From: Azospirillum sp.
Lineage (GTDB): Bacteria; Pseudomonadota; Alphaproteobacteria; CACIAM-22H2
NCBI GenBank assembly: GCA_020249045.1
Contig: JADCGK010000043.1
Location: 1-46,981 of the forward strand
Direction of reading: 5' to 3'
DNA length: 46,981 nt
The notes under the pieces are model-generated. The model was not told where the DNA came from and did no database searches. It saw only the letters and a program-made list of their open reading frames with translations. The position numbers were made by a program, and so were the translations under genes. Each line of letters opens with the position of its first letter. Position 1 is the stretch's first letter. Below, one piece after another: positions 918 through 16,412 of the stretch.

Positions 918-2441
918 ATGACCCTCGTTCTCGTTCCCGGGCGCACGACGCTCGACCAGTGGCGTGCCATCCATGCGGGTGCGACGCCTTCGCTCGATCC
1001 CGCGTGCCGGCCGCGCGTCGCCGAAGCCGCGGCCGCGATCGCCCGCATCCTCGCCAAAGGCGAACCCATTTACGGCATCAACACCGGCTTCGGCAAACTC
1101 GCGGGCGTGCGCATCGGCCCCGACGATCTGGCCACGCTCCAGCGCAACATCGTGTTGTCCCACGCCGCCGGAACGGGCCCGGATCTGCCGCGCGCGGTCG
1201 TGCGGCTCGTCATGGCGCTCAAGCTCGCCAGCCTCGCCCAAGGCGCTTCGGGCGTTTCGCTCGCCACGCTCGATCTGCTCGAAGCGATGCTCGCGCGCGA
1301 TCTCGTCCCCGTCGTTCCCGGTCAAGGTTCGGTGGGCGCATCGGGCGATCTCGCCCCGCTCGCCCATTTGTCCGCCGCGATGCTCGGCGTGGGCGCCATC
1401 GACACGCCCCGGGGGCGCCTGCCCGCGGCGGCGGCGCTGCGCGACGCGGGCCTCGCCCCCGCGCGGCTGGGCGCCAAGGAAGGTCTTGCGTTGCTCAACG
1501 GCACGCAAGTCTCCACCGCACTCGCGCTGACGGCGCTGTTCGAAACCGAGGCCGCGTTCCGTGCCGGTCTCGTGACCGGGGCGCTGGCGACCGACGCCGC
1601 GCGCGGGTCCGACACGCCCTTCGATCCGCGGATCCACGCGTTGCGCAAGCACAAGGGCCAGATCGACGCGGCCGATGCGTTGCGCGCGTTGATGGCGGGC
1701 AGCGCCATCCGGGCGTCCCACCGGATCGACGATCCCCGCGTGCAGGATCCCTATTGCTTGCGCTGCCAGCCGCAGGTGATGGGGGCGTGCCTCGATCTGA
1801 TCCGGCAGGCGGGGGCCACGCTCGCCACCGAGGCCGACGGCGTGTCGGACAATCCGCTGATCTTCGCCGACGCCGACGAGGCGCTGTCGGGCGGCAATTT
1901 CCACGCCGAGCCCGTCGCTTTCGCCGCCGACCAATTGGCCCTGGCGATTTGCGAGATCGGTTCGCTGTCCGAACGGCGCTTGGCGATGCTGATCGACCCC
2001 GCCTTGTCGGGCCTGCCCGCGTTCCTCACGCCCAAGCCCGGCCTCAATTCCGGCTTCATGATCCCGCAAGTGACGGCCGCCGCTTTGGTTTCGGAGAACA
2101 AGCAGCGCGCCTATCCCGCCAGCGTCGATTCGATCCCCACCTCGGCCAACCAGGAGGATCATGTCTCCATGGCCGCCCACGGGGCGCGGCGTCTGCTGTC
2201 GATGACGCGCAATCTGCGCGCGATCCTGGCGATCGAATTGCTGGCGGCGGGGCAAGCGGTCGAATTCCAGGCGCCGTTGACGACCTCCGCCCCGCTCGCG
2301 CGCGTCCTTGCCGCGTTGCGCGCGCGGGTGCCGCGGCTGGAGGACGACCGCCATTTCCACCCCGACATCGAAGCGGCGATCGCCCTCGTCGCGGGCGGTG
2401 TGCTGCCGCGCGAAGCGGGGATCGCCTTGCCGGGGGCTTGA
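918..2441 (+). CDS. hutH: Histidine ammonia-lyase
   Basis: 507 residues, the normal length of the family. It deaminates L-histidine to trans-urocanate and ammonia in the cytoplasm, the first step of histidine breakdown. The Ala-Ser-Gly triad that cyclises into the MIO electrophile is at residues 141-143 inside [14 protein letters not shown], and the N-terminal [11 protein letters not shown] with catalytic Tyr is at about 52-62. Start ATG follows a GAGGGAC ribosome-binding site. No hutU, hutI, hutG or hutC is nearby; the next gene is an aminotransferase 35 bases downstream, so the gene is an orphan relative to the usual hut operon. A tyrosine or phenylalanine ammonia-lyase cannot be excluded, though length and motifs favour HutH. 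Confidence 0.9.
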
Positions 2442-2476
2442 AGGGGCGGGAAACGGCGGATACAACCCCACCCGTC

Positions 2477-3634
2477 ATGAACCCGATTTTCGCCGAATTG
2501 CCGACCACGATTTTCGAGGAGATGTCGGCCCTCGCTCGCGCGCTCGACGCGGTCAATCTGGGCCAGGGATTTCCCGACGATCCCGGCCCCGAGGACGTGC
2601 GCCGCAAGGCGGCCGATGCGGTGATCTCGGGCTGGAACCAATATCCGCCGATGCCGGGCCTGCCCGAACTGCGCCAGGCGGTGGCCGCGCATTACAAGGT
2701 GCATCAAGGGCTCGAGATCGACCCGATGGCCGAAGTGATGGTGACCTCCGGCGCCACCGAGGCGATCGCGGGCGCTTTGCTGGCGCTGATCGCGCCCGGC
2801 GACGAGGTGGTGCTGTTCGAGCCCTATTACGACGCCTATCTGCCGCTCGTGCGCCGCGCCGGCGGCGTGCCGAAATTCGTCAAGCTGGCGCCGCCCGATT
2901 GGCGCTTCACGAAGGCGCAGCTGGCCGCGGCGATCGGGCCCAAAACGCGCGTGGTGCTGTTCAACAACCCGCTCAATCCCTCCGCGACGGTCTACGGCCC
3001 CGCCGAGCTTCGCCTGATCGCCGAAGCGATCCGCGATACGAACGCCATCGTCGTCGCCGACGAGGTGTGGGAACACGTGATCTTCGACGGCCGCGCGCAC
3101 ACCTCGGTACTCGCGATCCCCGAATTGCGCGCCCGGTCGGTCAAGATCGGCTCGGCCGGCAAGATATTCTCGCTGACCGGGTGGAAGGTCGGCTTCACGG
3201 TCGCCGCACCGGACATTCTGAAGGTGCTGATGAAGGCGCATCAGTTCCTGACCTTCACGACCCCGCCCAATCTGCAAAGCGCGGTGGCCTACGGCTTGGG
3301 CAAGGACGCCGCGCATTTCGACGCCATGCGCGCGGATCTGACCGCGCGGCGCGATCATCTCGCCAAGGGCCTTGCTTCGGCCGGGTTCAAGACGCTGGCG
3401 TGCGAAGGCACCTATTTCATCAACGTCGATTTGGCGCCGTTGGGTCTGACCGACGACCAGGCGTTCTGCCGGCGTTTGGTCAAGGAGGCGGGCGTCGCCG
3501 CGATTCCGGTTTCGGCCTTCTACGCCGACGGCGGCATGCGCTCGGCGATCCGCTTTTGCTTCGCCAAGAAATACGAAACCCTCGACGCGGCGGTCGAACG
3601 CCTGGCGCGCTACGCGCCGAAGCTGGCCGCCTAG
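2477..3634 (+). CDS. PLP-dependent aminotransferase (class I/II)
   Basis: 385 residues. It has the fold-type I aminotransferase layout: N-terminal LGQGFPDDPGP, GATEAIAG, NNPLNPSA (about 163-170), ADEVWEH (about 194-200) and the PLP-binding lysine at about 229 in SAGKIFSLTGWKVGF. The sequence is closest in style to the methionine/glutamine-keto-acid (YbdL/KAT) subgroup. Start ATG 2477 is the first before the conserved region. It is probably co-transcribed with hutH 35 bases upstream, which suggests amino-acid catabolism, but the substrate is not determined. Its stop overlaps by 4 bases the convergent racemase-like gene. Confidence 0.85.
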   Translation: MNPIFAELPTTIFEEMSALARALDAVNLGQGFPDDPGPEDVRRKAADAVISGWNQYPPMPGLPELRQAVAAHYKVHQGLEIDPMAEVMVTSGATEAIAGALLALIAPGDEVVLFEPYYDAYLPLVRRAGGVPKFVKLAPPDWRFTKAQLAAAIGPKTRVVLFNNPLNPSATVYGPAELRLIAEAIRDTNAIVVADEVWEHVIFDGRAHTSVLAIPELRARSVKIGSAGKIFSLTGWKVGFTVAAPDILKVLMKAHQFLTFTTPPNLQSAVAYGLGKDAAHFDAMRADLTARRDHLAKGLASAGFKTLACEGTYFINVDLAPLGLTDDQAFCRRLVKEAGVAAIPVSAFYADGGMRSAIRFCFAKKYETLDAAVERLARYAPKLAA

Positions 3635-4401
3635 CGAAGCGTCGGCAGGCGGATTTTCCCGCCCCAGGTCTCCCCGCGCACCCAAGCGAGAAGATCGTCG
3701 CGGTCGGGCTTGCGGCCTTGCATCGCGGCCACGCCGCGCCACGCGGTCGCGAGCATGCAGCTCAATACCGGCGCGCGGCCGATGAAGGGCCGCGCGAGGA
3801 TGGGGGCGAGCGTGGGCATGCCGGTTCCCAGCATCACGATCGCATCGACGTCCTGGCCTTCCATCGCATCCAGGGCGGCGGCGGCCGCGGCCGCGGTCAG
3901 GCTGTAGATCGGATGGAAATCGGGCGAGTCGCGATAGGCGTCGCTTTGCGCGGTCACGGCGAACCCGCGCGCGCGCCAATAGGCGCGGCTGGCCGCGTTG
4001 AGGCCGGGCGTGTAGGGCGACACGAGGCCGATCTTCCGGGCGCCCAGCGCGTTCAACGCCGCGACGACCGCGATCCCCGACGTCACCACCGGCACGCCGG
4101 CTTTGGCCGTCGCGCGCGCGATCATCGCATCCTCGGCTTCGGGACCGGCCAGATAGGAAGCGCCCGTGCACGCGACCGCGACCGCCCCGATGGGCGCGTT
4201 GGCGAATTGGTCGAGTGCGGATTCCATCGTGGCGAAGTAATCCACCAGCCGTTCTTCGATCGTGGGCTTGGGCGAGGTCAAGCGCGCGTTGATCCATGCC
4301 GTGCCCGCGGGCATCAGCACGGCGAACTCGGGTTCGACGGTCGTGTTGGCCTGCGGCGTCAGCGTGCCGAGCAAACCTTCGGGCGCGTATTCGACGGCCA
4401 T
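3631..4401 (-). CDS. Asp/Glu racemase superfamily protein (maleate isomerase/arylmalonate decarboxylase-like)
   Basis: 256 residues, cytosolic. The LLGTLTPQANTTVEPEF start and the VACTGASYLAG motif with Cys78 place it in the Asp/Glu/hydantoin racemase superfamily, near maleate cis-trans isomerases and arylmalonate decarboxylases. Where these enzymes carry the second catalytic cysteine, this protein appears to read MLGTGMPTL (about 190-198), with Thr in place of Cys; another Cys at 215 (VLSCMLATAW) lies further on. The chemistry may therefore differ from a two-cysteine isomerase. It is divergent from the flavin hydroxylase at 4477 and shares its palindromic control region, so it probably belongs to the same catabolic island. 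Exact reaction unknown. Confidence 0.75.
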   Translation of the reverse strand: MAVEYAPEGLLGTLTPQANTTVEPEFAVLMPAGTAWINARLTSPKPTIEERLVDYFATMESALDQFANAPIGAVAVACTGASYLAGPEAEDAMIARATAKAGVPVVTSGIAVVAALNALGARKIGLVSPYTPGLNAASRAYWRARGFAVTAQSDAYRDSPDFHPIYSLTAAAAAAALDAMEGQDVDAIVMLGTGMPTLAPILARPFIGRAPVLSCMLATAWRGVAAMQGRKPDRDDLLAWVRGETWGGKIRLPTLR

Positions 4402-4414
4402 CGCGGGAACTCCG

Positions 4415-4442
4415 TTGACGGATTACTTGTCTGCAATATAGT
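4415..4442 (+). promoter_or_regulatory. Promoter of the first hydroxylase/ABC operon
   Basis: A -35 TTGACG (4415-4420), a 16-base spacer and a -10 TATAGT (4437-4442) form a good sigma-70 type promoter pointing at the gene starting at 4477, giving a leader of about 28 bases. The palindrome at 4425-4448 covers the spacer and the -10, so a bound repressor would block polymerase. Confidence 0.55.
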
Positions 4443-4448
4443 ACAAGA
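4425..4448. promoter_or_regulatory. Operator A, CTTGT-N12-ACAAG
   Basis: Inverted repeat CTTGT (4426-4430) and ACAAG (4443-4447) with a 12-base spacer, in the divergent gap between the racemase-like gene and the flavin hydroxylase. It shares the pattern ACTTGTC-N5-TATA-N2-ACAAG with operator B at 8998-9021. A likely ligand is the GntR/UTRA regulator encoded at 14768, by inference. Confidence 0.6.
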
Positions 4449-4476
4449 CGGCTTCTCCGTCCCCCGGCAGTTTCCC

Positions 4477-6153
4477 ATGGCGACGACGACGATCGAAACG
4501 CCCGTGTTGATCGCGGGCGGCGGGCCCGTGGGCCTGACGCTGGCCGGCGAACTCGGCTGGCGCGGCCGGTCTTGCGTGCTGGTCGAGGAGCGCACGCGCC
4601 CGACCGAGCATCCCAAGGCGACGCTGCTGGGCGCGCGTTCGATGGAGTATTTCCGCCGCTGGGGCATCGTCGATGCGATCTACGCGCGCGCCCTTCCGCC
4701 CGAGGTCAACTACTTCATCACGTTCTCGACGCGGCTTGCGGGCCGGGAATTGCACCGCATCACCTCGCCGTCGATCCGCGAGACCATCGAACGGCCGCCC
4801 GCCGCGATGGCGAAGTACCGCGAACTCGCTTGGTCGCCCTTCTACAAAACCCAGATCGGCCAGCAGGCGCTCGAACCCGTGCTGCTCGACTTCGCGCGCG
4901 CGCGAAGTCCGGTCGACTTGCGGCACGGCTGGCGCTTGCGCGATTTCGTCGAGGAGGGTTCGGGCGTCCTGTCGCGGATCGAGAACCTCGCGACCGGCGA
5001 GATCGCGAATGTCCGCAGCCGCTATCTGATCGCTTGCGACGGCGGGCAGTCGGCCATCCGGCGCGCGCTCGGCATCCGCATGAACGGGCGCGGGCGCATG
5101 CGGCCGAACGTGTCGTTCTACTTCCGCTCCGAGGCGTTCCTGAAGGTCCACGATCGCGGTCTCGGCAATCTCTATTTCATCTTCGCGCCGGACAGTTTCG
5201 GGCTGTTCACCGCGATCGACGGCCATGCCGAATGGCTGTTCCAGTTCTACTTCCTCGATCCGGCAAAACGCACCGACGCCCTCGATCCCAAGGAGGTGCT
5301 GTTCCGCGCTGTGGGCAAGCCGTTCGATTTCGAACTGCGCGGCGTGCAGCACTGGCATCACCATCAATCGGTCGCGCGCGCGTGGCGCTCGCCCGCGGGC
5401 CGGGTGTTCCTGGCCGGGGACGCCGCGCATCTGTTCGCGCCGACCGGCGGAGTGGGGATGAACACCGGCATCGGCGACGCCGTGGATCTCGGCTGGAAGC
5501 TCGACGCCGTGCTCGGCGGCTCGGCGCCCGAATCGCTGCTCGACAGCTACGAGCGCGAGCGCAAACCCATCGCCGTGCGCAATTCCACGATCTCGGCCAA
5601 CAATTCCGACAAGATCGACATGGTGATGGATGAGACCCCGCCCGAAATCGAGGCCGACGGGCCGGAGGGCGACCGGGTGCGCAAGGCCGTGAAGCGCAAG
5701 ATCGTCTGGATGGCCAAGCAGTTCAATTCGGGCGGCACGCATCTGGGCTATCGCTACGCCGACAGCCCGATCGTCGTGCCCGACGGAACGCCCGAGCCGC
5801 CCGACGATTTCACCCAGGTCGTGCCCTCGACCTGGCCGGGCTGCCGCGCGCCGCACGGCTGGCTCGGCGAGGACCGGAGTATGCGCGGCGCGTCCACGCT
5901 GGACTGGTTCGGCCGGGATTGGGTGCTGGTCCGAGCCCGATCCGCGCCCGATTCCGCGGGGCTGGACGCCGCCTTCGCCAGTCGTGGTATGAAACTGGCA
6001 ACGCGAACGCTTCCGACCCCCGAATTGGAAGCGCTCTACGAACGTCCCTTGGTTTTGGTCCGTCCCGACGGGCACGTCGCCTGGCGCGGGAACGAACCGC
6101 CCCCCGATTGCGAAGGACTCGCCGATGTCGTCCGCGGCTGCCACGTCGACTGA
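4477..6153 (+). CDS. FAD-dependent aromatic-type monooxygenase (large, PheA/TfdB-like)
   Basis: 558 residues, cytosolic. The dinucleotide-binding VLIAGGGPVGLTLAGEL is at about residues 9-25 and the second FAD motif FLAGDAAHLFAPTGGVGMNTG lies in the C-terminal half. This is the class A flavoprotein hydroxylase plan, NAD(P)H- and O2-dependent, used to hydroxylate phenols and related rings. The extra C-terminal region of about 150 residues is typical of PheA/MhpA-like members. It is the first gene of a rightward operon with the ABC ATPase and permease, which overlaps its 3' end by 29 bases. The substrate is not evident; the linked importer suggests the transported compound is hydroxylated at once. 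Confidence 0.82.
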   Translation: MATTTIETPVLIAGGGPVGLTLAGELGWRGRSCVLVEERTRPTEHPKATLLGARSMEYFRRWGIVDAIYARALPPEVNYFITFSTRLAGRELHRITSPSIRETIERPPAAMAKYRELAWSPFYKTQIGQQALEPVLLDFARARSPVDLRHGWRLRDFVEEGSGVLSRIENLATGEIANVRSRYLIACDGGQSAIRRALGIRMNGRGRMRPNVSFYFRSEAFLKVHDRGLGNLYFIFAPDSFGLFTAIDGHAEWLFQFYFLDPAKRTDALDPKEVLFRAVGKPFDFELRGVQHWHHHQSVARAWRSPAGRVFLAGDAAHLFAPTGGVGMNTGIGDAVDLGWKLDAVLGGSAPESLLDSYERERKPIAVRNSTISANNSDKIDMVMDETPPEIEADGPEGDRVRKAVKRKIVWMAKQFNSGGTHLGYRYADSPIVVPDGTPEPPDDFTQVVPSTWPGCRAPHGWLGEDRSMRGASTLDWFGRDWVLVRARSAPDSAGLDAAFASRGMKLATRTLPTPELEALYERPLVLVRPDGHVAWRGNEPPPDCEGLADVVRGCHVD

Positions 6154-6937
6154 TCCCCATCCCGCCATCGGCCTGAAGGCCATCGAAAAATGGTACGGCA
6201 CGCGCGACACGCCCGTGCACGCGTTGGCGCCCACCGATCTGGCCGTGCCCGAGGGCCAATTCCTCGTGCTGTTGGGCCCGTCGGGTTGCGGAAAGACCAC
6301 GCTGTTGCGGATGATCGGCGGCTTGATCGAGCCGACCTCGGGCGAATTGTCGATCGAGGGCAAAAATCTGTGGCGCGGCGGCGACCGCCAATCCGAAGCC
6401 CTGTCCGAACTCGGCATGGTGTTTCAGGAGGCGAACCTGTTCCCCTGGCTGACCATCGAGCAGAACATCGCGCTGCCGCTGGAATTGAAGGGGGTGGACA
6501 AGGACAAGCGCCTCGCCCGCGCGCGCGAGTTGTGCAAGCTGGTCGGCATCGCCGGTTTCGAGAAGCGCTGGCCCAAGGAATTGTCGGGCGGCATGCGCCA
6601 GCGCGCGGCGATCGCGCGCGCGCTGTCCTACGATCCGCACATCCTGCTGATGGACGAGCCGTTCGGCGCGCTCGACGCGATGACGCGCGACGCCATGAAC
6701 CTCGAACTCCAGCGCATCTGGATGGAAACGAAGAAGACCGTCGTCCTCGTCACCCACTCGATCGGCGAGGCGGTGTTCCTGGCCGACCGGATCGTGCTGC
6801 TGTCCCCGCGCCCGGGGCGCATCGATTCCATCATCGACGTGCCGTTCCCCCGCGCGCGCGGCACGGAAGTCCAGACCTCCGCCGAATTCCAGGCGATCGT
6901 GCGCCGTTTGCGCGTACGGTTGGCCGAAATCTCCTGA
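6125..6937 (+). CDS. ABC importer ATPase (nitrate/sulfonate/taurine/pyrimidine type)
   Basis: 270 residues. Walker A GPSGCGKTT is at 51-59, the signature LSGGMRQR and Walker B ILLMDEPFGALD follow in order, and the H-loop lies in VLVTHSIGEAVFL. This matches SsuB/TauB-type ATPases that energise small-organic-anion importers. The start at 6125 overlaps the hydroxylase gene by 29 bases but is supported by an AAGGA site about 8 bases upstream and by the absence of another start before the conserved region. The permease follows 13 bases downstream; matching binding proteins are at 11391 and 13771. Confidence 0.9.
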   Translation: MSSAAATSTDPHPAIGLKAIEKWYGTRDTPVHALAPTDLAVPEGQFLVLLGPSGCGKTTLLRMIGGLIEPTSGELSIEGKNLWRGGDRQSEALSELGMVFQEANLFPWLTIEQNIALPLELKGVDKDKRLARARELCKLVGIAGFEKRWPKELSGGMRQRAAIARALSYDPHILLMDEPFGALDAMTRDAMNLELQRIWMETKKTVVLVTHSIGEAVFLADRIVLLSPRPGRIDSIIDVPFPRARGTEVQTSAEFQAIVRRLRVRLAEIS

Positions 6938-6950
6938 AGGCGAACCCCCG

Positions 6951-7778
6951 ATGACCGACAGCGTCAAGATCTCCGTCCCGCCGCCCGAACTGCTCGCCAA
7001 GAAGCGGATCACCCGCGAAGGCCTGCTGCCGTGGATCACCACGCCCGTTCTGGTGTTCGCGATGGTCGTGGTGTGGCACGTCTACGTGAAGACGACGGGT
7101 ATCTCCGCCTTCATCCTGCCCGCGCCGTCGACCGTATGGACCGAATGGCTCGCGATGCTCGACAGCCCGCGCGCCTGGCGTCACACCTATTTCACCATCT
7201 ACGCCACGCTCGTCGGCTTTTTCTGGGCGATCGTGATCGGCGTCGGGCTCGGCGTGATGATCGCGCGCATCCGGTGGCTCGAACAGACGCTCAATCCCTT
7301 CATCGTCGCCACCCAGGTCGTGCCGAAGGTCGCGCTGGTGCCGCTGTTCGTCGTGTGGTTCGGTTTCGGCATCACGTCCAAGGTGATCGTGGCGGCCGTG
7401 CTCGCCTTCTTCCCGATCCTGACCAACACCGTGCTGGGCGTTAAGTCGATCGACGAAGGCCATCGCGACGTGATGACCAGCCTCAACGCCACGCGCTGGC
7501 AGATCTTCAAGCGGCTGGAGCTGCCTTCGGCGCTGCCCTACATCCTGACCGGCCTGGAAGTGGGCATCGTGCTCGCGATCATCGGGGCGATCGTCGGCGA
7601 GTATCTGGGCGGCAACACGGGGCTCGGCGCGCTGCTGATCGCGCGGATGAACGCCTACGAAACCGACCAGATGTTCGCGGTGCTGATCCACATGTCGCTG
7701 CTCGGCTTCGCGTTCTATTTCGCGATCGGGGCGTTGCGCCGGGTGCTGATCCCCTGGCACCAATCCGCGTCGCACTGA
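6951..7778 (+). CDS. ABC importer permease (SsuC/TauC type)
   Basis: 275 residues with about six hydrophobic segments and the inner-membrane permease loop around residues 170-200 (SIDEGHRDVMTSLNATRWQIFKRLELP is read there in part as MTSLNATRWQIF...LELPSALP), followed by EYLGGNTGLGALL. It forms the membrane channel for the ATPase encoded just upstream; two copies should pair in the transporter. Its stop (7776-7778) directly abuts the stop of the convergent hydroxylase gene with no base between them. Confidence 0.9.
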   Translation: MTDSVKISVPPPELLAKKRITREGLLPWITTPVLVFAMVVVWHVYVKTTGISAFILPAPSTVWTEWLAMLDSPRAWRHTYFTIYATLVGFFWAIVIGVGLGVMIARIRWLEQTLNPFIVATQVVPKVALVPLFVVWFGFGITSKVIVAAVLAFFPILTNTVLGVKSIDEGHRDVMTSLNATRWQIFKRLELPSALPYILTGLEVGIVLAIIGAIVGEYLGGNTGLGALLIARMNAYETDQMFAVLIHMSLLGFAFYFAIGALRRVLIPWHQSASH

Positions 7779-8981
7779 TCACGCGACCGCGGCGGCGATC
7801 CGCAAGCCTTCGATCATCGAGGATTTGAGAAGATAGGCCCGCGCCTTGGCGGGATCGGCCGCGGTCGCCTGCAGGCCGGCGAGAAGCTCCCGGCGCTTGG
7901 CGGGATCCTTTTCGCGCATGCGCGCGCGGTTGCGGTCGGCTTGCGCCAGGATCTGCTCCTTGGCCACCGGCCGGCGGCGGCGGTCGTAGAGGTCGAGCCG
8001 CGCGGCCGTATCCGCCCCGCCCAGAATGTCCGCCAACGCCGCGCTCAACTCGAACGCGTCGTGGATGCCGCCGTTGAGGCCCATGCCCCCCGCCGGCGAA
8101 TTCAGATGCGCGGCGTCCCCCGCCAACGCGACGCGGCCCGCGAAATAGCGCGGCACGATCCGCTGATGCACCCGGTACGCGCGCTTCTCCATCACGAAAT
8201 AGCGGTCCTTGCGCGGCACGATCTCCTGCAGGCTCGCCTCGACCGCCGCGTCGGACAATTGCGCGTCCACGGGCGAATCCTCGCGCGGATAGATCGACAC
8301 GCGCCAGCGTCCGGGCACCTTCAACAGCGAGAAATTGCCGCCGTCCTTCCAGCAATACGAAACGTTGGACAGGCCCTCGAGATGGTCTTCGAACGGGAAA
8401 TTCGTCGTCACTAGCAGCGTGGTCTCGGGGTAGGTCTGGCCGTCGAACTCGAGTCCGAGCATCTTGCGCACGCCCCCGCGCGCGCCGTCGGCCCCGACCA
8501 GGAACTTCGCGCGCAAGGTTTCGGATCGGTCGCCGTGCGCGATGCGCGCGGTCACGCCCGCATCGTCCTGCTCGAACCCCTCCAGCCGGGTGCCGAAATC
8601 GATCCGCGCGGTCTTCTCGCGCGCCAACCGCGTTTCGAGCGCTTCGGACAGTTTCCATTGCTCGCATTGCAGGCGGAACGGGTGGGCCGTCACGTCGGCG
8701 AGGATATTGAGGTCGAAGACCGCGCGATCGCCCGACGGATGCAGACGCACCTGCCAATTCGGGCAGACGAGCCCCCGGGTCAGCAATTCGCCCGCGACGC
8801 CGAATTCCGCCAGCATGTCGAGCGTCGGCGGATGGAAGGTCGACGCGCGCAGATCCTTGGCGATGGCCGGCTCGGCTTCGAGCACGCGCACGGCCACCCC
8901 TTTGCGCGCCAACAGATAGCCGAGGCACAGCCCCACCGGCCCGCCGCCGGCGATCAACACGTCGCAATCGGTCGTATCCAT
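7779..8981 (-). CDS. FAD-dependent monooxygenase (short class A hydroxylase)
   Basis: 400 residues, the length of 4-hydroxybenzoate/salicylate/6-hydroxynicotinate-type hydroxylases. VLIAGGGPVGLCLGYLLARKG at the N-terminus binds the ADP part of FAD, VGADGARGGVRK is the middle motif, and ALAGDAAHLNSPAGGMGLNGG binds the flavin ribityl chain. It acts in the cytosol on an unidentified ring substrate. It is divergent from the SDR/aldehyde dehydrogenase operon across operator B, and convergent with the ABC permease with no gap. Having two distinct flavin hydroxylases in one island suggests two successive hydroxylations or two related substrates. Confidence 0.82.
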   Translation of the reverse strand: MDTTDCDVLIAGGGPVGLCLGYLLARKGVAVRVLEAEPAIAKDLRASTFHPPTLDMLAEFGVAGELLTRGLVCPNWQVRLHPSGDRAVFDLNILADVTAHPFRLQCEQWKLSEALETRLAREKTARIDFGTRLEGFEQDDAGVTARIAHGDRSETLRAKFLVGADGARGGVRKMLGLEFDGQTYPETTLLVTTNFPFEDHLEGLSNVSYCWKDGGNFSLLKVPGRWRVSIYPREDSPVDAQLSDAAVEASLQEIVPRKDRYFVMEKRAYRVHQRIVPRYFAGRVALAGDAAHLNSPAGGMGLNGGIHDAFELSAALADILGGADTAARLDLYDRRRRPVAKEQILAQADRNRARMREKDPAKRRELLAGLQATAADPAKARAYLLKSSMIEGLRIAAAVA

Positions 8982-8997
8982 GTCGGTCCCGCCTTGT

Positions 8998-9021
8998 ACT
9001 TGTCCTATCTATATGACAAGT
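8998..9021. promoter_or_regulatory. Operator B, ACTTGTC-N10-GACAAGT
   Basis: Perfect 7-base inverted repeat, ACTTGTC (8998-9004) and GACAAGT (9015-9021), with spacer CTATCTATAT, in the gap between the divergent short hydroxylase and the SDR gene. An additional CTTGT half-site begins at 8993. It matches operator A at ACTTGTC, TATA and ACAAG in the same spacing, which points to one regulator for both promoters. On the minus strand a -10-like TATAGA lies inside the site. Confidence 0.65.
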
Positions 9022-9058
9022 TACGTCCGATCGAAACGCCCAATGAAAGAAGGCCGGT

Positions 9059-9838
9059 TTGCCCCCCGTGAACCGCTTCCAATCCCCGGAAAACAGGCGC
9101 GTCGCCGTGGTCGGCGGGGCGGGCGGCATCGGCCGCGCGCTGGTCTCGGCCTTGCTCGATCAGCGCGCGCGCGTCGCGATCCTCGATTTGCCCGCCAGTC
9201 TCGCCCGGCACGAACCGCCCGCCGGCACGCTCGTCCGCGCCCTGGATGCGACCGACGAAAGCCAAGTCCGCGCCGCCTTCGCCGCCGTCCAAGACGCTTG
9301 GGGCGGGCTCGACGCACTCGTCAATCTCGCGGGCTTCGCCAAGGAGAAAGCGCCCGTCGGCGCTACGCCGCGCGCGACGTGGGACGAGGTGATGGACGGC
9401 AATCTGACCGCCGCCTATCTGTGCAGCCAAGCGGCGCTGCCGTTGTTGCGCGCGGGCGATGCGCCGGCGATCGTGAACATGTCCTCCGGCCTCGCGGTCA
9501 AGCCCACGCCCGGGTACGGGCCCTATTCGGTCGCCAAGGCCGGCGTGCTCGCGCTCACGCGGCTGTTGGCGGCGGAGAACGCACCCGCGATCCGCGTCAA
9601 CGCCGTGGCGCCTGCGGCGGTCGACACGGCCTTTCTGAAGGGCGGAACGGGGCGGGGCGGGGACGAAGCCAACGGCCCCGCGCGGCTCGATCTCGACGCC
9701 TATTTGAAGACCGTCCCGCTCGCGCGCCTCGCCCAGCCCGAGGATGTCGTCGGGCCGATTCTGTTTTTGCTGTCCCCCGCCGCCGCCTACGTGACAGGGC
9801 AGACGCTGCACGTGAACGGCGGGCTTTGGATGAATTGA
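9059..9838 (+). CDS. Short-chain dehydrogenase/reductase
   Basis: 259 residues from a TTG start, chosen because AAGAAGG ends 5 bases upstream; a GTG at 9068 is the alternative. The NAD(P) motif GGAGGIG is at 19-25, the structural VNLAG near 88-92, and the catalytic Ser142/143, Tyr156 and Lys160 in YSVAK. The C-terminal YVTGQTLHVNGG is typical of classical SDRs. It probably oxidises an alcohol or reduces a ketone on the route fed by the hydroxylases, but the substrate cannot be read from sequence. It leads the operon with the aldehyde dehydrogenase, 4 bases downstream. Confidence 0.85.
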   Translation: MPPVNRFQSPENRRVAVVGGAGGIGRALVSALLDQRARVAILDLPASLARHEPPAGTLVRALDATDESQVRAAFAAVQDAWGGLDALVNLAGFAKEKAPVGATPRATWDEVMDGNLTAAYLCSQAALPLLRAGDAPAIVNMSSGLAVKPTPGYGPYSVAKAGVLALTRLLAAENAPAIRVNAVAPAAVDTAFLKGGTGRGGDEANGPARLDLDAYLKTVPLARLAQPEDVVGPILFLLSPAAAYVTGQTLHVNGGLWMN

Positions 9839-9842
9839 CGCC

Positions 9843-11357
9843 ATGAACGCACCCGCGTCCTTGCCCATCGCGGCCCCGGCCGAAACCCACGCGTTGATCG
9901 CCGGCGCGTCGATCGCCGGCGCGGGCGCGCGGCTGCCGATCTTCTATCCGGCCACCGGCGCGCAAGTGGGCGAGTTGATCGAGGACGACGCCGCGCAGAT
10001 CGACCGCGCGGTTGCGGCCGCCCGCACGGCGTTCAAATCGGGTTGGGCGAAGCTCGCGGTCGAAAAACGCCAGGAAATCCTGCTGAAGCTGCACGACGTC
10101 GTGCTCGCGCATGCGGACGAACTCGCGCGCCTGGAATGCCTCAACACCGGCATCGTCATGCGCGAGTTGCGCGAACGGCACATGAAGCGCGCGGCCTACA
10201 ACTTCCGCTTCTTCGCCGAATACATCGCCCACGCGAAGGGCGAGGTCTACGACCAGACGCCCGGCTACCGCTCGGTCGTCGTGCGCGAACCCGTCGGCGT
10301 GGCCGCGCTGATCGCGCCGTGGAACGCGCCGACGGCGCTCGCCTCGATGAAGATCGCCGCATGCCTCGCCTTCGGCAATACGTGCGTCCTCAAGCCCTCC
10401 GAACAGACCCCGCTCGCGCTGCGCCGCTTCGTCGAATTGCTGCACGCTGCGGGCTTGCCCGAAGGCGTGGTCAACCTCGTCAACGGCCGCGGCGCCACGA
10501 CGGGTGCCGCCCTCGTCGCGCATCCGGGCGTCGATCTCGTCAGCTTCACCGGCGGCACGCAGACCGGCCGGGCCATCGCCGCCGAGGCGGGCCGCCGCTT
10601 GAAGCCCGTGACGATGGAACTGGGCGGGAAATCGGCGAACATCGTCTTCGCCTCGGCCGATCTCGACCGCGCCCTCGACGCGGCGTTGGTCGGCATCTAT
10701 TCGAACAACGGCCAGCAATGCCTCGCGGGCTCGCGCATCCTGCTCGAACGCAATATCGCCGACGCCTTCATCGCGCGCTTCGTTGCGCGCGCCCGGGGCA
10801 TCCGGATCGGCGATCCGACCGACGACCGGACGGAGCTGGGCCCCCTCGCTTCGGCGGCGCATCGGGACCGGGTGCTCGGTTTCGTGGACGTCGCCAAGGC
10901 CGACGGCGCCGCCTTGCTGACCGGCGGCAAGCGCGCGGACATGCCGGGCGCGCTGGCGGGCGGGTATTTCGTCGAGCCCACCGCCGTCCGCGTGGGGTCG
11001 AGTGCCGCGCGCGTCTGCCGGGAGGAAATCTTCGGGCCGTTCGCGAGTTTCCTGACCTTCGAAACCTACGACGAGGCGATTTCCGCGGCCAACGACAGCG
11101 ATTTCGGCCTCGTCGCCTATGTGTGGTCGGACCACGTCCCCACCGTCGAGCGTGCCACGCGCGATCTGGCGGCTGGGGTGGTCTGGGTCAACACCCCCAT
11201 GACAAGGGAGTTGCGCGCGCCCTTCGGCGGGTACAAAGATTCGGGTCTCGGCCGCGAAGGCGGGGAGGCGTGCGAGCGCTTCTACACCGAGGTGAAGACC
11301 GTCACCGTGCCGTCCACCCCCGTCGCCGTGCGCAAGCTCGGCCTGCCGACCGGATAA
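9843..11357 (+). CDS. Aldehyde dehydrogenase (semialdehyde dehydrogenase-like)
   Basis: 504 residues, standard length. Catalytic Glu259 is in MELGGKSANIVF and the nucleophile Cys293 in NNGQQCLAGSR; the GQQC and LAGSR context is that of hydroxymuconic or carboxymethyl-hydroxymuconic semialdehyde dehydrogenases (HpaE/DmpC-like). It would oxidise an aldehyde or semialdehyde to the acid with NAD(P)+. No ring-cleavage dioxygenase was found in the window, so the link to aromatic ring fission is only suggestive. It follows the SDR by 4 bases and precedes the first binding protein by 33 bases. Confidence 0.87.
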   Translation: MNAPASLPIAAPAETHALIAGASIAGAGARLPIFYPATGAQVGELIEDDAAQIDRAVAAARTAFKSGWAKLAVEKRQEILLKLHDVVLAHADELARLECLNTGIVMRELRERHMKRAAYNFRFFAEYIAHAKGEVYDQTPGYRSVVVREPVGVAALIAPWNAPTALASMKIAACLAFGNTCVLKPSEQTPLALRRFVELLHAAGLPEGVVNLVNGRGATTGAALVAHPGVDLVSFTGGTQTGRAIAAEAGRRLKPVTMELGGKSANIVFASADLDRALDAALVGIYSNNGQQCLAGSRILLERNIADAFIARFVARARGIRIGDPTDDRTELGPLASAAHRDRVLGFVDVAKADGAALLTGGKRADMPGALAGGYFVEPTAVRVGSSAARVCREEIFGPFASFLTFETYDEAISAANDSDFGLVAYVWSDHVPTVERATRDLAAGVVWVNTPMTRELRAPFGGYKDSGLGREGGEACERFYTEVKTVTVPSTPVAVRKLGLPTG

Positions 11358-11390: not shown

Positions 11391-12398
11391 ATGTTGCATC
11401 GCCGCCAGTTCTTGGGCACCGCCGCCGCCGGCGCTTCGTTGCTCGCCGCGCCCTCGATCGTCAACGCCCAAGCGGGCGAGCCCTTCACCTTCATGACGCC
11501 GTTCGGCTTCATTCCCGATTTCATCGAAATGATGAACATGGTCTCGGGCGGGCATCTGCAACGCCAGGGCTTCGCGCCGCGTCTGCTCGGCGGGCAGGGG
11601 ACCGCGACGGCGATCCAGCAATTGATGGCCGGGACCGCGAGCTTCGTGCGCGTGACCGCGATCGACCAGTTTCTGGCCGTCGCGCGCCAGAACGCGCCGC
11701 TCGTGACCGTCTCGACGCTCTATCAGGGGTCGACCTTCCAGCTCGTCAGCCTGCGCGACCGGCCGATCCGCGACGCGGCCGATCTGCGCGGCAAGACGGT
11801 GGGCATCGTTTCCGTCGGCGGTTCGACCGACCTGCTGCTCAACATCATGCTTCAGAAGGCGGGCTTGCGCACCGAGGACGTCAAGAAGGAAGTCACCGGC
11901 AACAGCCCCGGCGCCCTGCAGCTGGTCCGCCAAGGCCGCGTCGACTGCTTCTTGTGCGCGATCGGCGTGGTCGTCACGCTGCGGCGCGCGAACGAGCCCA
12001 TCGAGGTGATGTCGACCGACAAGTACGCGCCCATGCCCAGCCAGATCTTCGTCACCACGCGCGACTATCTGCAGCGCAATCCCGAGCAGGCAGTCCGCTT
12101 CCTGCGCGCCTATCGCGCTTCGTGCGACGAGGTGATGAACGGGGACAAGCGCGCGATCTTCCAGCGCGCGGCGCGGGACTTCGAAATCCCGGGCATTCGC
12201 GATCTGGACACCGTCAGCGCGCTGATCGACGTTTCGATCCGCGATCTTTGGCTGTCGGAAGGACGCGAGAACCTGTACCGCAACGTGCCGCGTCTGTGGC
12301 TCGACGCCGACCGCAACATCCGCGGCGCCGGCATCGCCGCGGTGCCCAACGTCGAAGCGCTCTACACCAACGAATTCATCGATCGGGCGCGCGCGTGA
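11391..12398 (+). CDS. ABC substrate-binding protein 1 (NMT1/SsuA-like, Tat-exported)
   Basis: 335 residues. HRRQFLGTAAAG at the N-terminus is a twin-arginine motif followed by a hydrophobic core ending at VNAQA, so it is exported folded. The mature protein starts with FMTPFGFIPDFIEMMN and has the two-lobed NMT1/SsuA-type plan (QQLMAGTASFVR, LRGKTVGIVSVGGSTD). It has a perfect AGGAGG site. It is closely similar along its length to the protein at 13771, including the shared MTPFGF, FIEMMN, VGIVSVGG and YAPMPSQ blocks. It should deliver a small organic substrate to the permease at 6951, the only one in this island. Confidence 0.85.
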   Translation: MLHRRQFLGTAAAGASLLAAPSIVNAQAGEPFTFMTPFGFIPDFIEMMNMVSGGHLQRQGFAPRLLGGQGTATAIQQLMAGTASFVRVTAIDQFLAVARQNAPLVTVSTLYQGSTFQLVSLRDRPIRDAADLRGKTVGIVSVGGSTDLLLNIMLQKAGLRTEDVKKEVTGNSPGALQLVRQGRVDCFLCAIGVVVTLRRANEPIEVMSTDKYAPMPSQIFVTTRDYLQRNPEQAVRFLRAYRASCDEVMNGDKRAIFQRAARDFEIPGIRDLDTVSALIDVSIRDLWLSEGRENLYRNVPRLWLDADRNIRGAGIAAVPNVEALYTNEFIDRARA

Positions 12399-12694
12399 GC
12401 GTATCGCCCCTGCCCGGCCGGTCGGCGTTGCGCGACCGGCCGGAGCAGACCTTCTTCGAAGACCCGGCGCTCGACCGGCTGGCCGGCGCGCTCTACGCGT
12501 TGGCGGCGGAAACCTGGGTCCTGCGCGACCGGGTGCGCAGGCTCGAAGCCCACCTCGAATCGACCGGCGCGCTCGTGCCCGGCGCGCTCGAAACCGCGCC
12601 CGAACCGGAGGGCTTGGCCGAGGAGCGCAAGGCCTTCGTGCGCGCGCTGATGGAGCCGCTGCTGGGGCGGCAGAAATCGAACGGAGCGGGTTAG
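12395..12694 (+). CDS. Small helical/coiled-coil protein, unknown
   Basis: 99 residues from a GTG that overlaps the preceding stop as GTGA, the signature of translational coupling to binding protein 1. The middle (about residues 25-55, LDRLAGALYALAAETWVLRD then RVRRLEAHLES) has heptad-like spacing of Leu/Ala and looks like a helical hairpin or coiled coil. No signal peptide, membrane segment or recognised motif is present; cytosolic. It is not recognised. Its place, between two binding-protein genes and 2 bases before a methyltransferase, suggests that it works with that methyltransferase or with the catabolic enzymes, as a subunit or adaptor. Confidence 0.7.
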   Translation: MSVSPLPGRSALRDRPEQTFFEDPALDRLAGALYALAAETWVLRDRVRRLEAHLESTGALVPGALETAPEPEGLAEERKAFVRALMEPLLGRQKSNGAG

Positions 12695-12696
12695 CC

Positions 12697-13758
12697 ATGG
12701 CCGTGTCGCGCCGCGAGTTCGAGGCGTTCCAGGCCTTCGTGCTCGATACGAAGCTCTTCTGGACCGCCGACATGTTCGCCGCCTTGAAGGACGATTTCGA
12801 GGCCCGGCTGCCCAATGCGCAAGGCGCCCCGGGCCCGGCGCGCGTCGAGAAAACGCTGGCCGATTCGCCGACCGCAGCGTGGCACGCGTGGTTCGAACGC
12901 CATCTCCAGCGCATGAAGTATTCCGGGCGGCTCGGCCTCGTGCCCTACGCCGACACGTTGCGCGCGGAGATCGAGCGCGATCTGTCGGCCCCGCTGCCGG
13001 CCGGGCTGCTCGATCTCGATCCGACGCTGGAAATGCCGCGCTACTACGCCGAACTCGACGTGCACCAGCATCCCGGCGGCGTGTGGAGCGATCCCATCGC
13101 GGGCGCCGTCTACGAAATGGGCGCGCGCAGCACCACGCCGCTTCTGTCGAAGCACAAGGATCTGCACCAGCGTCTGGTCGACGCGATTTTGGCGCGCGGA
13201 CCGGCCCGGCGCGTGCTCGACATGGGCTGCGGCTTCGGCAAGACGACCAAGCCGCTCTATGAAACCGCGCGCGACGCCGAGGTCATCGGCATCGATCTGG
13301 CCGCGCCGTGCCTGCGGCTAGCCGCACAGGACGCCGCGCGCGCCCAGGCGCGCAACGTCCGCTTCCTGCAGCGCGACGCCGCGCGCACCGGCCTGCCGGA
13401 CGCGTCGGTCGACGTCGTCACCTCGACGATGCTGCTGCACGAGATGCCGCCCGCGCATACGCGCGCGGTCCTCGCCGAAGCCCATCGCGTGCTGGCCCCG
13501 GGCGGCTTGATGATCCATCTCGACTTCCTGCCGCCCGACGACGAGTTCCTGGCGTGGCTGCATTTCGGCCATGCGCGGCGCAACAACGAGCCCTACATGA
13601 CGACCCTCGCCGCGATGGACATCGGCGGTTCGATCGAGGCCGCGGGCTTCCGAGGCGTCGAGATCTCGGATTTCGAGGAGGCGCCGGGCGCCCTCGAACT
13701 CGCCGGCAGGAAATGGCGCTTCCCTTGGACCCTGATCGCCGCGCGCAAGGCGGCCTGA
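12697..13758 (+). CDS. Class I SAM-dependent methyltransferase
   Basis: 353 residues. An N-terminal region of about 160 residues with no recognised fold precedes a Methyltransf_11/25-type domain: motif I VLDMGCGFGKTT, then VIGIDLAAPCL with the acidic residue for the SAM ribose, VRFLQRDAARTGLPD, VDVVTSTMLLHEMPP and HRVLAPGGLMIHLDF. This is the small-molecule methyltransferase plan. A GGAGCGGG site precedes the start. The substrate is unknown; in a cluster with hydroxylases, O-methylation of a phenolic intermediate is possible. It sits between the 99-residue protein and binding protein 2, all one direction. Confidence 0.82.
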   Translation: MAVSRREFEAFQAFVLDTKLFWTADMFAALKDDFEARLPNAQGAPGPARVEKTLADSPTAAWHAWFERHLQRMKYSGRLGLVPYADTLRAEIERDLSAPLPAGLLDLDPTLEMPRYYAELDVHQHPGGVWSDPIAGAVYEMGARSTTPLLSKHKDLHQRLVDAILARGPARRVLDMGCGFGKTTKPLYETARDAEVIGIDLAAPCLRLAAQDAARAQARNVRFLQRDAARTGLPDASVDVVTSTMLLHEMPPAHTRAVLAEAHRVLAPGGLMIHLDFLPPDDEFLAWLHFGHARRNNEPYMTTLAAMDIGGSIEAAGFRGVEISDFEEAPGALELAGRKWRFPWTLIAARKAA

Positions 13759-13770
13759 GCGGAGCCGACG

Positions 13771-14775
13771 ATGACCCTCGACCGCCGCACCTTCCTCGCC
13801 GCCGGCGCCGCCGCGTCCTTGGCGTCCGCGCCCGCCCTGGCCCAGGCGCGCGAACCCTTGGCGGTCATGACGCCGTTCGGCTTCAACACCGATTTCATCG
13901 AAATGATGAACGCGGTCGCGGGCGGACATCTGGCCCGGCAGGGGTTCGATGCGCGCCTGCTCGGCGCCAACGGCACGGCGCCGGCCACCCAACAGCTGGT
14001 CGCGGGCCAGGTCCAGTTCATCCGTTCGGCCGCCATCGACATGATCCGCGCCGTGCAGTCCTCCGGCGCGCCGTTGGTCGCGGTCGCCACGTCGCATCAG
14101 GGATCGACCTTCCACGTCGTGTCGCTGCGCGACAAACCGGTGCGCGAGGCAAAGGATTTGGCCGGCAAGACCGTGGGAATCGTGTCGGTCGGCGGCACCA
14201 CCGACATCTTCCTCGATCTGATGCTGCAAAGCGCCGGCTTGAAGCGCGACGACGTGCGGCGCGAGGTGACCGGCGCCTCGCCCGGGGCGCTGCAGCTCGT
14301 CAAAGCCGGTCGGGTCGATTGCTTCATGACCTCGATCTCCGCGATCGTGGCGTTGCGCCGCGCGAACGAGCCCATCGAGATCTGGTCGACCGACCGCTAC
14401 GCGCCGATGCCCAGCCAATGCTACGTCACCACGCGCGACACGATCGAACGCCGCCCGCAGACGGTCGTGCGTTTCCTGCGCGCGATGAAGGCGTCGATGG
14501 ACGAAATGCTCGCCGGCAACAGCCGCGCGGTGTTCGAGCGCGCGGGCCGCGAGTACGAAATCCCGGGGATCCGCGATCTCGATTTCGTCGTCGAGGTGGC
14601 GCAAACCTCCCAGCGCGAATTGTGGCTCTCGCGGGGCCGCGAGAATCTGCTGCGCAACGTGCCCGAATTGTGGGAGTCGGGGTTCCGCGCGCTCAAGGCG
14701 GCGGGGCTGGCCGACCCGCCCGATCCGTCGGCGTTGTGGACCAACCGCTTCGTCGAGGAAGCGTTGCGTGGCTAG
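13771..14775 (+). CDS. ABC substrate-binding protein 2 (NMT1/SsuA-like, Tat-exported)
   Basis: 334 residues, a paralogue of the protein at 11391. The twin-arginine motif DRRTFLAAG and a hydrophobic core ending ALAQA give Tat export. Conserved blocks are VMTPFGFNTDFIEMMN, TQQLVAGQVQFIRS, VGIVSVGGTTD, SPGALQLVKAGRVDCF and YAPMPSQ. The two copies differ mainly at positions that would line the ligand cleft and the C-terminus, so they may bind related but distinct ligands for one permease. A GGAG site precedes the start. Its 3' end overlaps the GntR gene by 8 bases. Confidence 0.85.
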   Translation: MTLDRRTFLAAGAAASLASAPALAQAREPLAVMTPFGFNTDFIEMMNAVAGGHLARQGFDARLLGANGTAPATQQLVAGQVQFIRSAAIDMIRAVQSSGAPLVAVATSHQGSTFHVVSLRDKPVREAKDLAGKTVGIVSVGGTTDIFLDLMLQSAGLKRDDVRREVTGASPGALQLVKAGRVDCFMTSISAIVALRRANEPIEIWSTDRYAPMPSQCYVTTRDTIERRPQTVVRFLRAMKASMDEMLAGNSRAVFERAGREYEIPGIRDLDFVVEVAQTSQRELWLSRGRENLLRNVPELWESGFRALKAAGLADPPDPSALWTNRFVEEALRG

Positions 14776-15523
14776 ACGCACGCCCGGGGTGGCCTCGCTT
14801 TACCGGCAGGTCTACGGACACCTGCGCGCGGTGGTGACCGAAGGGCGGGCCGATCCGGCCGATCCGCTGCCCTCCGAGCCCGCGCTCGCCGAACGCTACA
14901 AGGTCAGCCGCGTGACGGTGCGCCGCACGCTGGAGATGCTCGAAGCCGAGGGGCTCGTGCGCCGCGTGCGCGGCGTTGGCACGTTCCCGGTCCCGCGCGA
15001 ACCGGCGAACGACCGTGGAAACATCGGCGGCGCGCTCGATTCGCTGTTGTCCTACGAGCGCACGACGACGGTCGAGAATCTCGAATGGCGGTTGGCCGCG
15101 CCGTCGGCCGACGCGGCCGCGGGCCTGGGTCCGGACAAATGTCTGCGGATCGTGCGCGTCCGGCTTTATCGCGGCACGCCGATTTCGCTGACCACGCTGC
15201 ACGTGCCCAAGCAACACGCCAAGCGGCTCGATCGGGCGCGTGCGGGCGACGAACCCATCGTCGCGATCCTCGAACGCGAGGGTATCGCCGCGGCGCGCGC
15301 GGAGCAGACGCTGACGGCCGTGGCGGCCGACGCGCTGGCGGCCGCGCATTTGCGCGTGGCGGCCGGCGCGCCGCTGGTCGCGATGAAGCGGCTGATGCTT
15401 ACGGCCGCGCGCGCCCCGGTTTTGCACCAGACGAGCCTTTACGCCCCCGAGCGCTTCGAGTACCGGATGTCGCTGGCGCGCGGTTCGCTCGACTCGGCCG
15501 CGCGCTGGACCCCGATCGCCTAG
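14768..15523 (+). CDS. GntR-family regulator with UTRA (HutC-type) domain
   Basis: 251 residues from a GTG overlapping the binding-protein gene by 8 bases. The N-terminal winged helix contains [20 protein letters not shown] (about residues 36-55) followed by [16 protein letters not shown], and residues from about 90 form the UTRA ligand domain ([13 protein letters not shown] near the C-terminus). HutC-type regulators are usually repressors released by a pathway metabolite. As the last gene of the island it is the natural candidate to bind operators A and B. Its 3' end is overlapped on the other strand by the LysR gene. Confidence 0.88.
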
Positions 15524-16412
15524 CATCGGCGGCGGCCGTTTCGGCCGCGAGGTCCGCCACGCGCGCCGCGCGCCGTTCGTCCGGCGCCGCCGGCCAGCAC
15601 GCGACGAATTCGAGTTCGGGCAGATCCGCGTCGCTCGCCACGCGCATCAAACGCCCCGACCGCAACTCCGCGCCGACGATGGCCGCGGGCATCAACGCGA
15701 CCGCGATCCCGTCGAGTGCGAGCTTGATCGCCGGCGACAAGGCGGCCGAGGCGTGCAGTCGCGATGGTCCCACCCCGCGCTGGGCGAACAATTCCTCCAG
15801 CGCGATATGCGGTTTGGTTCCGCGCGCGAAGGTGACGATCGGATGCTCGGCGAGCTTGGCGAGCGGGGCGCGCGCGGGCAGGCCCAGGCGCGGACTCGCG
15901 AGGAAGGCGAGTTCGAACGTACCCAGCGCCTTGTTGCGCAAGCTGGGCGCGGAAAGCGGCCCCAGCAGGAAGGCAAGATCGATCTGGTGGGCCAGCAGGC
16001 GTTCGCGCAAGCGCGGGGAGATGTCGACCTCGATCTCCAGCGCCAAACGCGGATGCTCGCGCGCCAGCCGTTCGATCAGCCGCGGCAGCCAAGTGTGGAC
16101 GATGGTTTCCGCAACGCCCAGCCGCAGCGTGCCTTCGAGGGCCCCGTCGCGCGCCAAAGCCGCACGCATTTCCCCGTGCAGATCGAGAAGCCGCCGCGCG
16201 TAGCCCAACAGCGCGCGGCCCCGTTCGGTGGGCGTTGCCCCGCGCGCCTGCCGGTCGAGAAGCTTGCCGCCGCATTGCGCCTCCAGCCCCGCGATGCGCT
16301 GGGAGATGGCCGGTTGCGTGGCGTTCAGCTTCGCCGCCGCCGCGCGGAAGCCGCCGAGCGTCGCGACCCACACGAAGGTTTCGAGCGCCTTGAGATCGAT
16401 GCTCGCGGTCAT
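15399..16412 (-). CDS. LysR-family transcriptional regulator with C-terminal extension
   Basis: 337 residues, about 40 more than usual. The N-terminal helix-turn-helix is [20 protein letters not shown] (about 22-41), followed by the effector domain ([21 protein letters not shown] onward). The normal domain ends near [13 protein letters not shown]; the remaining residues (Arg/Ser/Ala/Gly-rich) are translated from the strand opposite the GntR gene, giving a 125-base convergent overlap. LysR proteins commonly control the divergent neighbour, here the DUF1445 gene and probably the TRAP operon behind it. A 15-base palindrome lies between the two starts. Confidence 0.85.

Follow-up and report, generated by a model that had tools for sequence, protein, structure and literature searches.

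Two matching palindromes in a catabolic gene cluster of Azospirillum sp. are predicted switches for the GntR-type regulator encoded there

The window, by which we mean the whole stretch of DNA that was analysed (46,981 nucleotides of contig JADCGK010000043.1 from Azospirillum sp.), contains a cluster of 12 genes with two divergent gaps, at 4402-4476 and 8982-9058. To the left of the first gap, on the minus strand, is a gene encoding an enzyme of the Amdase/Asp-Glu racemase fold (3631..4401). To its right, on the plus strand, are FMO1, which encodes an FAD aromatic hydroxylase (RebC/PRK06126-like, 4477..6153), and the ATPase (6125-6937) and permease (6951-7778) genes of an ABC importer (6125..7778), which overlap or abut FMO1 and are assigned to the same transcription unit. 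The second gap separates FMO2, encoding an FAD monooxygenase (PnpA/HspB-like, 7779..8981, minus strand), from a run of plus-strand genes for an SDR (9059-9838), an aldehyde dehydrogenase (HpaE/BADH-like, 9843-11357), an NMT1/THI5-like binding protein (11391-12398), a small ORF (12395-12694), a methyltransferase (12697-13758), a second NMT1-like binding protein (13771-14775) and a GntR/UTRA regulator (14768..15523). Since the intergenic gaps are 33 bp or less, the genes at 11391..14775 probably form one operon with those of the SDR, the aldehyde dehydrogenase and the regulator. A LysR gene (15399-16412) adjoins the cluster. Also next to it, at 918-3634, are the gene of a PLP aminotransferase and hutH, whose product, a histidine ammonia-lyase, scores above the curated cut-off.

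The nearest matches are PnpA and HspB for FMO2 and RebC for FMO1, while the aldehyde dehydrogenase scores below the cut-off against the HpaE and BADH models. The racemase-like protein resembles maleate isomerase and keeps its first catalytic cysteine (ACTGAS), with Gly/Thr aligned at the position of the second (MLGTGMPTL), and this absence of the second cysteine makes two-cysteine racemase/isomerase chemistry doubtful for the 3631-4401 protein. The substrate of the cluster is likely aromatic or N-heterocyclic.

The regulator consists of an N-terminal GntR winged helix-turn-helix (PF00392, E 9.3e-19, residues 11-73), with the recognition helix SRVTVRR, and a C-terminal UTRA effector domain (PF07702, E 2.6e-20, residues 98-231); its best PDB relatives by profile are 2ra5, NagR/YvoA and DasR. 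Its domains place it in the HutC subfamily, yet by the curated cut-offs it is neither HutC, the histidine utilisation repressor (TIGR02018, 79.8 bits against a cut-off of 220), nor PhnF (TIGR02325, 89 bits against 156.8), and its clade is separated from HutC proper with 100/100 support. The HutC model gave no match in the host genome at E values up to 1e-40, despite the hutH gene beside the cluster. As the preliminary description had noted, the regulator is encoded at the end of the gene run; its gene closes the operon that begins at the second gap, which makes autoregulation probable.

Each divergent gap holds one inverted repeat of the form ACTTGTC-N5-TATA-N2-ACAAG, at exactly the place first reported by eye. 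Candidate operator A (4425-4447, ACTTGTCTGCAATATAGTACAAG, no strand assigned) has the spacers TGCAA and GT, and its 20-bp core (TTGTCTGCAATATAGTACAA, 4427-4446) separates the racemase-like gene from the FMO1-ABC operon. Candidate operator B (8998-9021, ACTTGTCCTATCTATATGACAAGT, likewise unstranded) has the spacers CTATC and TG followed by a final T after the right arm, and its core (TTGTCCTATCTATATGACAA, 9000-9019) lies between FMO2 and the SDR-led operon; its 7-bp arms are perfect (ACTTGTC-N10-GACAAGT). The two repeats had also been described as having the same orientation. This holds for the off-centre TATA, which is placed alike in both, but that element is not kept in relatives, where the conserved palindrome is symmetric (consensus of 20 bp, TTGTATTA-N4-TAATACAA). 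Site B is overlapped on its left by an additional half-site, CTTGTAC (8993-8999), possibly a second weak box, and weaker additional half-sites beside GntR-family palindromes are on record (PMC4494728).

The cluster is absent from genomes of the same genus and order, so relatives were sought by alignment of the regulator. This yielded clusters in a Hyphomicrobiales MAG (L075), Rhizobium sp. NFR07 (L076) and Neorhizobium alkalisoli (L077), whose GntR proteins share 58%, 49% and 46% identity with that of the window, respectively. A fifth cluster is carried by a Roseomonas haemaphysalidis plasmid (L183; racemase-like protein 60%, FMO2 56%, GntR 36-38%). In the Hyphomicrobiales MAG both gaps and both sites are kept (gap A, CTTGTATTATCTAGCATACAAG; gap B, TTGTATGATTTATAAGACAA). 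Gap B is also kept in Rhizobium with TTGTTTTATCAATAAAACAA and in Neorhizobium with TTGTATTATCAATAGAACAA; in these two the racemase-like gene has been relocated beside the GntR gene, and the second site (TTGTATTATCTTCCATACAT and TTGTATTGTTTTGCATACAT, respectively) lies in the new gap between them. On the Roseomonas plasmid, the GntR gene is in an operon with FMO2 and the sole divergent gap contains one site, TTGTCCCAGTGTTATAACAA, which was found by a targeted look and has a modest matrix score of 15.1. A TTGT-N12-ACAA/T site is thus retained in the orthologous gaps of all four relatives, which is the opposite of the loss of the motif that had been named beforehand as evidence against the proposal. 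At L078, L080, L081 and L088, four remoter loci that share some homologous genes, the sequence model described below found no site, and no additional close Rhizobiaceae clusters were present among 298 genomes. The GntR gene is present in five of five clusters and is the sole tested regulator that co-occurs with the cluster. A further wide palindrome on the Roseomonas plasmid (CTGTCCTGTTTGTAGAACAA, 1074-1093) adjoins a different GntR gene (344-1036) and precedes an MBL-hydrolase operon.

Within the 47-kb window, CTTGT-N12-ACAAG occurs twice, as A and B, compared with 0.01 copies expected from dinucleotide shuffles. The exact pattern has four copies in the 3.87-Mb host genome (six for the reversed control pattern), the two further copies having GC-rich spacers and positions within long open frames, and a relaxed pattern with up to two mismatches has 18 (53 for the reversed control). 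A genome-wide scan had been set beforehand as the test that could refute a local regulon. The sequence model, for which eight operators were combined with their reverse complements, returned A and B only in the whole host genome (E values up to 10), so that many scattered copies can be ruled out, and exactly two sites, both at the divergent promoters of the cluster, in each of the Hyphomicrobiales, Rhizobium and Neorhizobium genomes (E values up to 5). The operators are therefore confined to the regulator's own cluster in the host and three other genomes. When a scoring matrix was built from three relatives only, with the window's own sites excluded, A and B ranked first (25.2 bits) and second (22.9 bits) in the window, followed by a next score of 10.3. 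Palindromes are commoner in AT-rich promoter DNA such as that of the two sites, and the repeats might in principle be chance or structural palindromes, such as hairpins, with no cognate protein. We regard this as extremely improbable: a chance origin is ruled out by the two exact sites against 0.01 expected per window and by the top two matrix ranks, the sites are kept in four relatives over great distance, and neither divergent gap contains an intrinsic terminator or terminator-like hairpin.

The palindrome is also found upstream of GntR-clade genes in quite different gene clusters, and a loose form of the motif lies near the GntR start at 29 of 87 loci (none for the reversed control). When spacings from 0 to 20 were compared in 38 upstream regions (loci dereplicated at 65% identity), TGT-Nx-ACA stood out at a spacing of 12, with 14 of the 38 loci against 1.6 expected. 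Loci of true HutC genes from the same class, 30 of which served as a control, gave the mirror image, with a GT-N4-AC peak (7/30 against 1.2 expected) and no peak at N12 (1 against 1.5). The operator also covaries with the recognition helix. A TGT...ACA site accompanies the helix SRxTxR at 35 of 40 loci (10/13 after dereplication) and the helix SRxTxK at none of 11 (0/8), and the SRVTVRR helix and TGT...ACA sites of the window agree with this pattern. The Arg/Lys split, which was the second helix position tried and was not prespecified, has a Fisher p of 9e-8 for all loci and of 0.001 after dereplication; the latter is preferred because the non-dereplicated loci are related, and even it corrects incompletely for shared ancestry. 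The position tried first, Ala versus Val/Ile/Met directly after the helix Thr and just before the Arg/Lys residue, covaries weakly with the operator (p 0.015 for all loci, 0.10 dereplicated). We consider it probable that a clade of HutC architecture in Alpha- and Betaproteobacteria reads GT-N12-AC, with half-sites 8 bp wider apart than in characterised HutC-type operators; this would imply that the DNA-binding domains sit differently on DNA. A longer linker is unsupported as the cause, the segment between winged helix and UTRA domain being 26-27 residues in both groups, and the difference must therefore stem from how the domains are held. At GntR-clade loci of four sphingomonads (L114, L127, L143 and L144), three to six wide palindromes are spread over several kb, so the local regulons there appear larger than that of the window. 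In a betaproteobacterial subgroup (Acidovorax, Variovorax and Polaromonas; L082-L108, L118, L131, L152 and others), a near-invariant ATGTCCTATTGACAGAACAA/T, often with a GGAC box after it, precedes the coding match of GntR by ~70 bp.

These patterns bear on whether the palindromes serve another regulator, with the GntR protein as a bystander. The LysR gene directly adjoins the cluster, LysR boxes are likewise dyads in divergent gaps, and the format of A and B differs from the canonical HutC-subfamily operator (PMC4494728). However, none of the other four clusters, all of which keep site and GntR, yielded a match to the neighbouring LysR protein; the 20-bp format recurs upstream of GntR-clade genes in different clusters and covaries with their recognition helix; and an unlinked regulator would need just two sites per genome in four genomes. 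We therefore hold it improbable that LysR or an unlinked protein is the cognate regulator. The palindromes are near-identical, lie at both back-to-back promoters and recur in four distant relatives of the cluster, and so very probably act as switches for the GntR-type regulator that the cluster itself encodes. The single regulon under this protein that was proposed at the outset finds support in the conservation of the sites, their genome-wide uniqueness, the co-occurrence of the regulator and the helix covariation.

The promoter context suggests how the sites might act. Gap A contains a plus-strand promoter-like sequence, TTGACG-N16-TATAGT (4415..4442; TTGACG at 4415-4420, TATAGT at 4437-4442; 10/12 matches), and operator A covers the end of its spacer and its -10 element. 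The reported overlap of operator A with the TATAGT box is thus borne out, and that box has a good -35 partner. The layout is identical in gap A of the Hyphomicrobiales MAG (TTGACA-N16-TAGCAT around the site). Overlap with the -10 element of a good promoter is a classic position for a repressor site, and it leads us to predict repression rather than activation. A search of gap B (8982-9058) gave no clear sigma-70-like match, so we infer the sign of regulation there, and how site B would block transcription is less clear. The GntR protein might thus bind both sites and yet activate, or matter at only some of the four units, since one site per divergent gap need not affect both sides; the placement of site A over the -10 element of a good promoter, in the window and in the Hyphomicrobiales MAG, argues otherwise, and we consider this version unlikely, if less so than service to a different regulator.

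We thus favour, with considerable confidence although from sequence, a model in which A and B are the sole operators of the cluster's GntR/UTRA regulator and a dimer bound to each controls four transcription units. A GntR dimer would bind each 20-bp site, and because each site lies over promoter DNA in a divergent gap, one protein could govern all four units, given the predicted operon structure. Binding at site A would block the FMO1-ABC importer promoter and probably that of the racemase-like gene; binding at site B would block FMO2 and the operon for SDR, aldehyde dehydrogenase, binding protein, methyltransferase, second binding protein and GntR. The regulator, lying within the latter, would control its own expression. 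By analogy with characterised UTRA regulators, a substrate or intermediate in the UTRA pocket would probably release the protein from DNA. Autoregulation and placement at divergent promoters are common among local repressors of the HutC subfamily.

A guess made by eye has in this way become a testable regulon of one regulator, two operators and four units, wired alike in four other bacteria. The analysis also yields a rule for target prediction, in which SRxTxR points to TGT-N12-ACA and SRxTxK to no TGT half-site, and which covers a large and apparently uncharacterised group of UTRA regulators. It poses the structural question of how a HutC-type dimer spans half-sites ~1.5 helical turns apart. 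By way of an inducer or a biosensor, the regulon also gives access to an uncharacterised pathway for an aromatic or N-heterocyclic compound. Our search of the open-licence literature found no paper on this GntR clade or on a GntR regulator with maleate isomerase.

Operators of the HutC subfamily are typically GT-N4-AC (NyGTMTAKACNy), with FarR, NagQ and SdhR as exceptions (PMC4494728). This format, which is typical rather than strictly defining, is seen neither in A and B nor in the sites of the relatives or the clade-wide peak. HutC, NagR/YvoA, DasR and PhnF share with the window regulator the PF00392 plus PF07702 architecture and palindromic operators with a TTGTC/TTGTA-type half-site, but their GT and AC are 4 nt apart compared with 12 nt in the window. 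The subfamily label alone would therefore predict another operator, since the characterised repressors use GT-N4-AC and not GT-N12-AC. YtrA-subfamily regulators resemble the window regulator in having half-sites far apart (for example GGTG-N16-CACC in PMC6746942); their C-terminal domain is short and lacks UTRA, whereas the window regulator has a full UTRA domain (residues 98-231) and does not fall in that subfamily. FarR/MngR and NagQ bind direct repeats (TGTATTAWTT and TGGTATT, respectively; PMC4494728), unlike the inverted repeat of the window, although FarR and the clade share the half-site word TGTATTA. At the operator level the window clade is like SdhR, a published HutC-subfamily exception with the operator TCTTATGTCTTATATAAGACATAAGA (PMC4494728), which has a wide GT...AC (GT-N10-AC by our count) and a half-site, TGTCTTAT, that resembles the half-sites TGTATTAT and TGTCCTAT of the window clade. 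SdhR differs in a spacer shorter by 2, an additional outer symmetry and different target genes. The regulatory logic of the cluster, a local repressor-type regulon, is ordinary; its operator geometry is unusual for the subfamily, and what a specialist would not expect is a GT-N12-AC operator throughout the clade.
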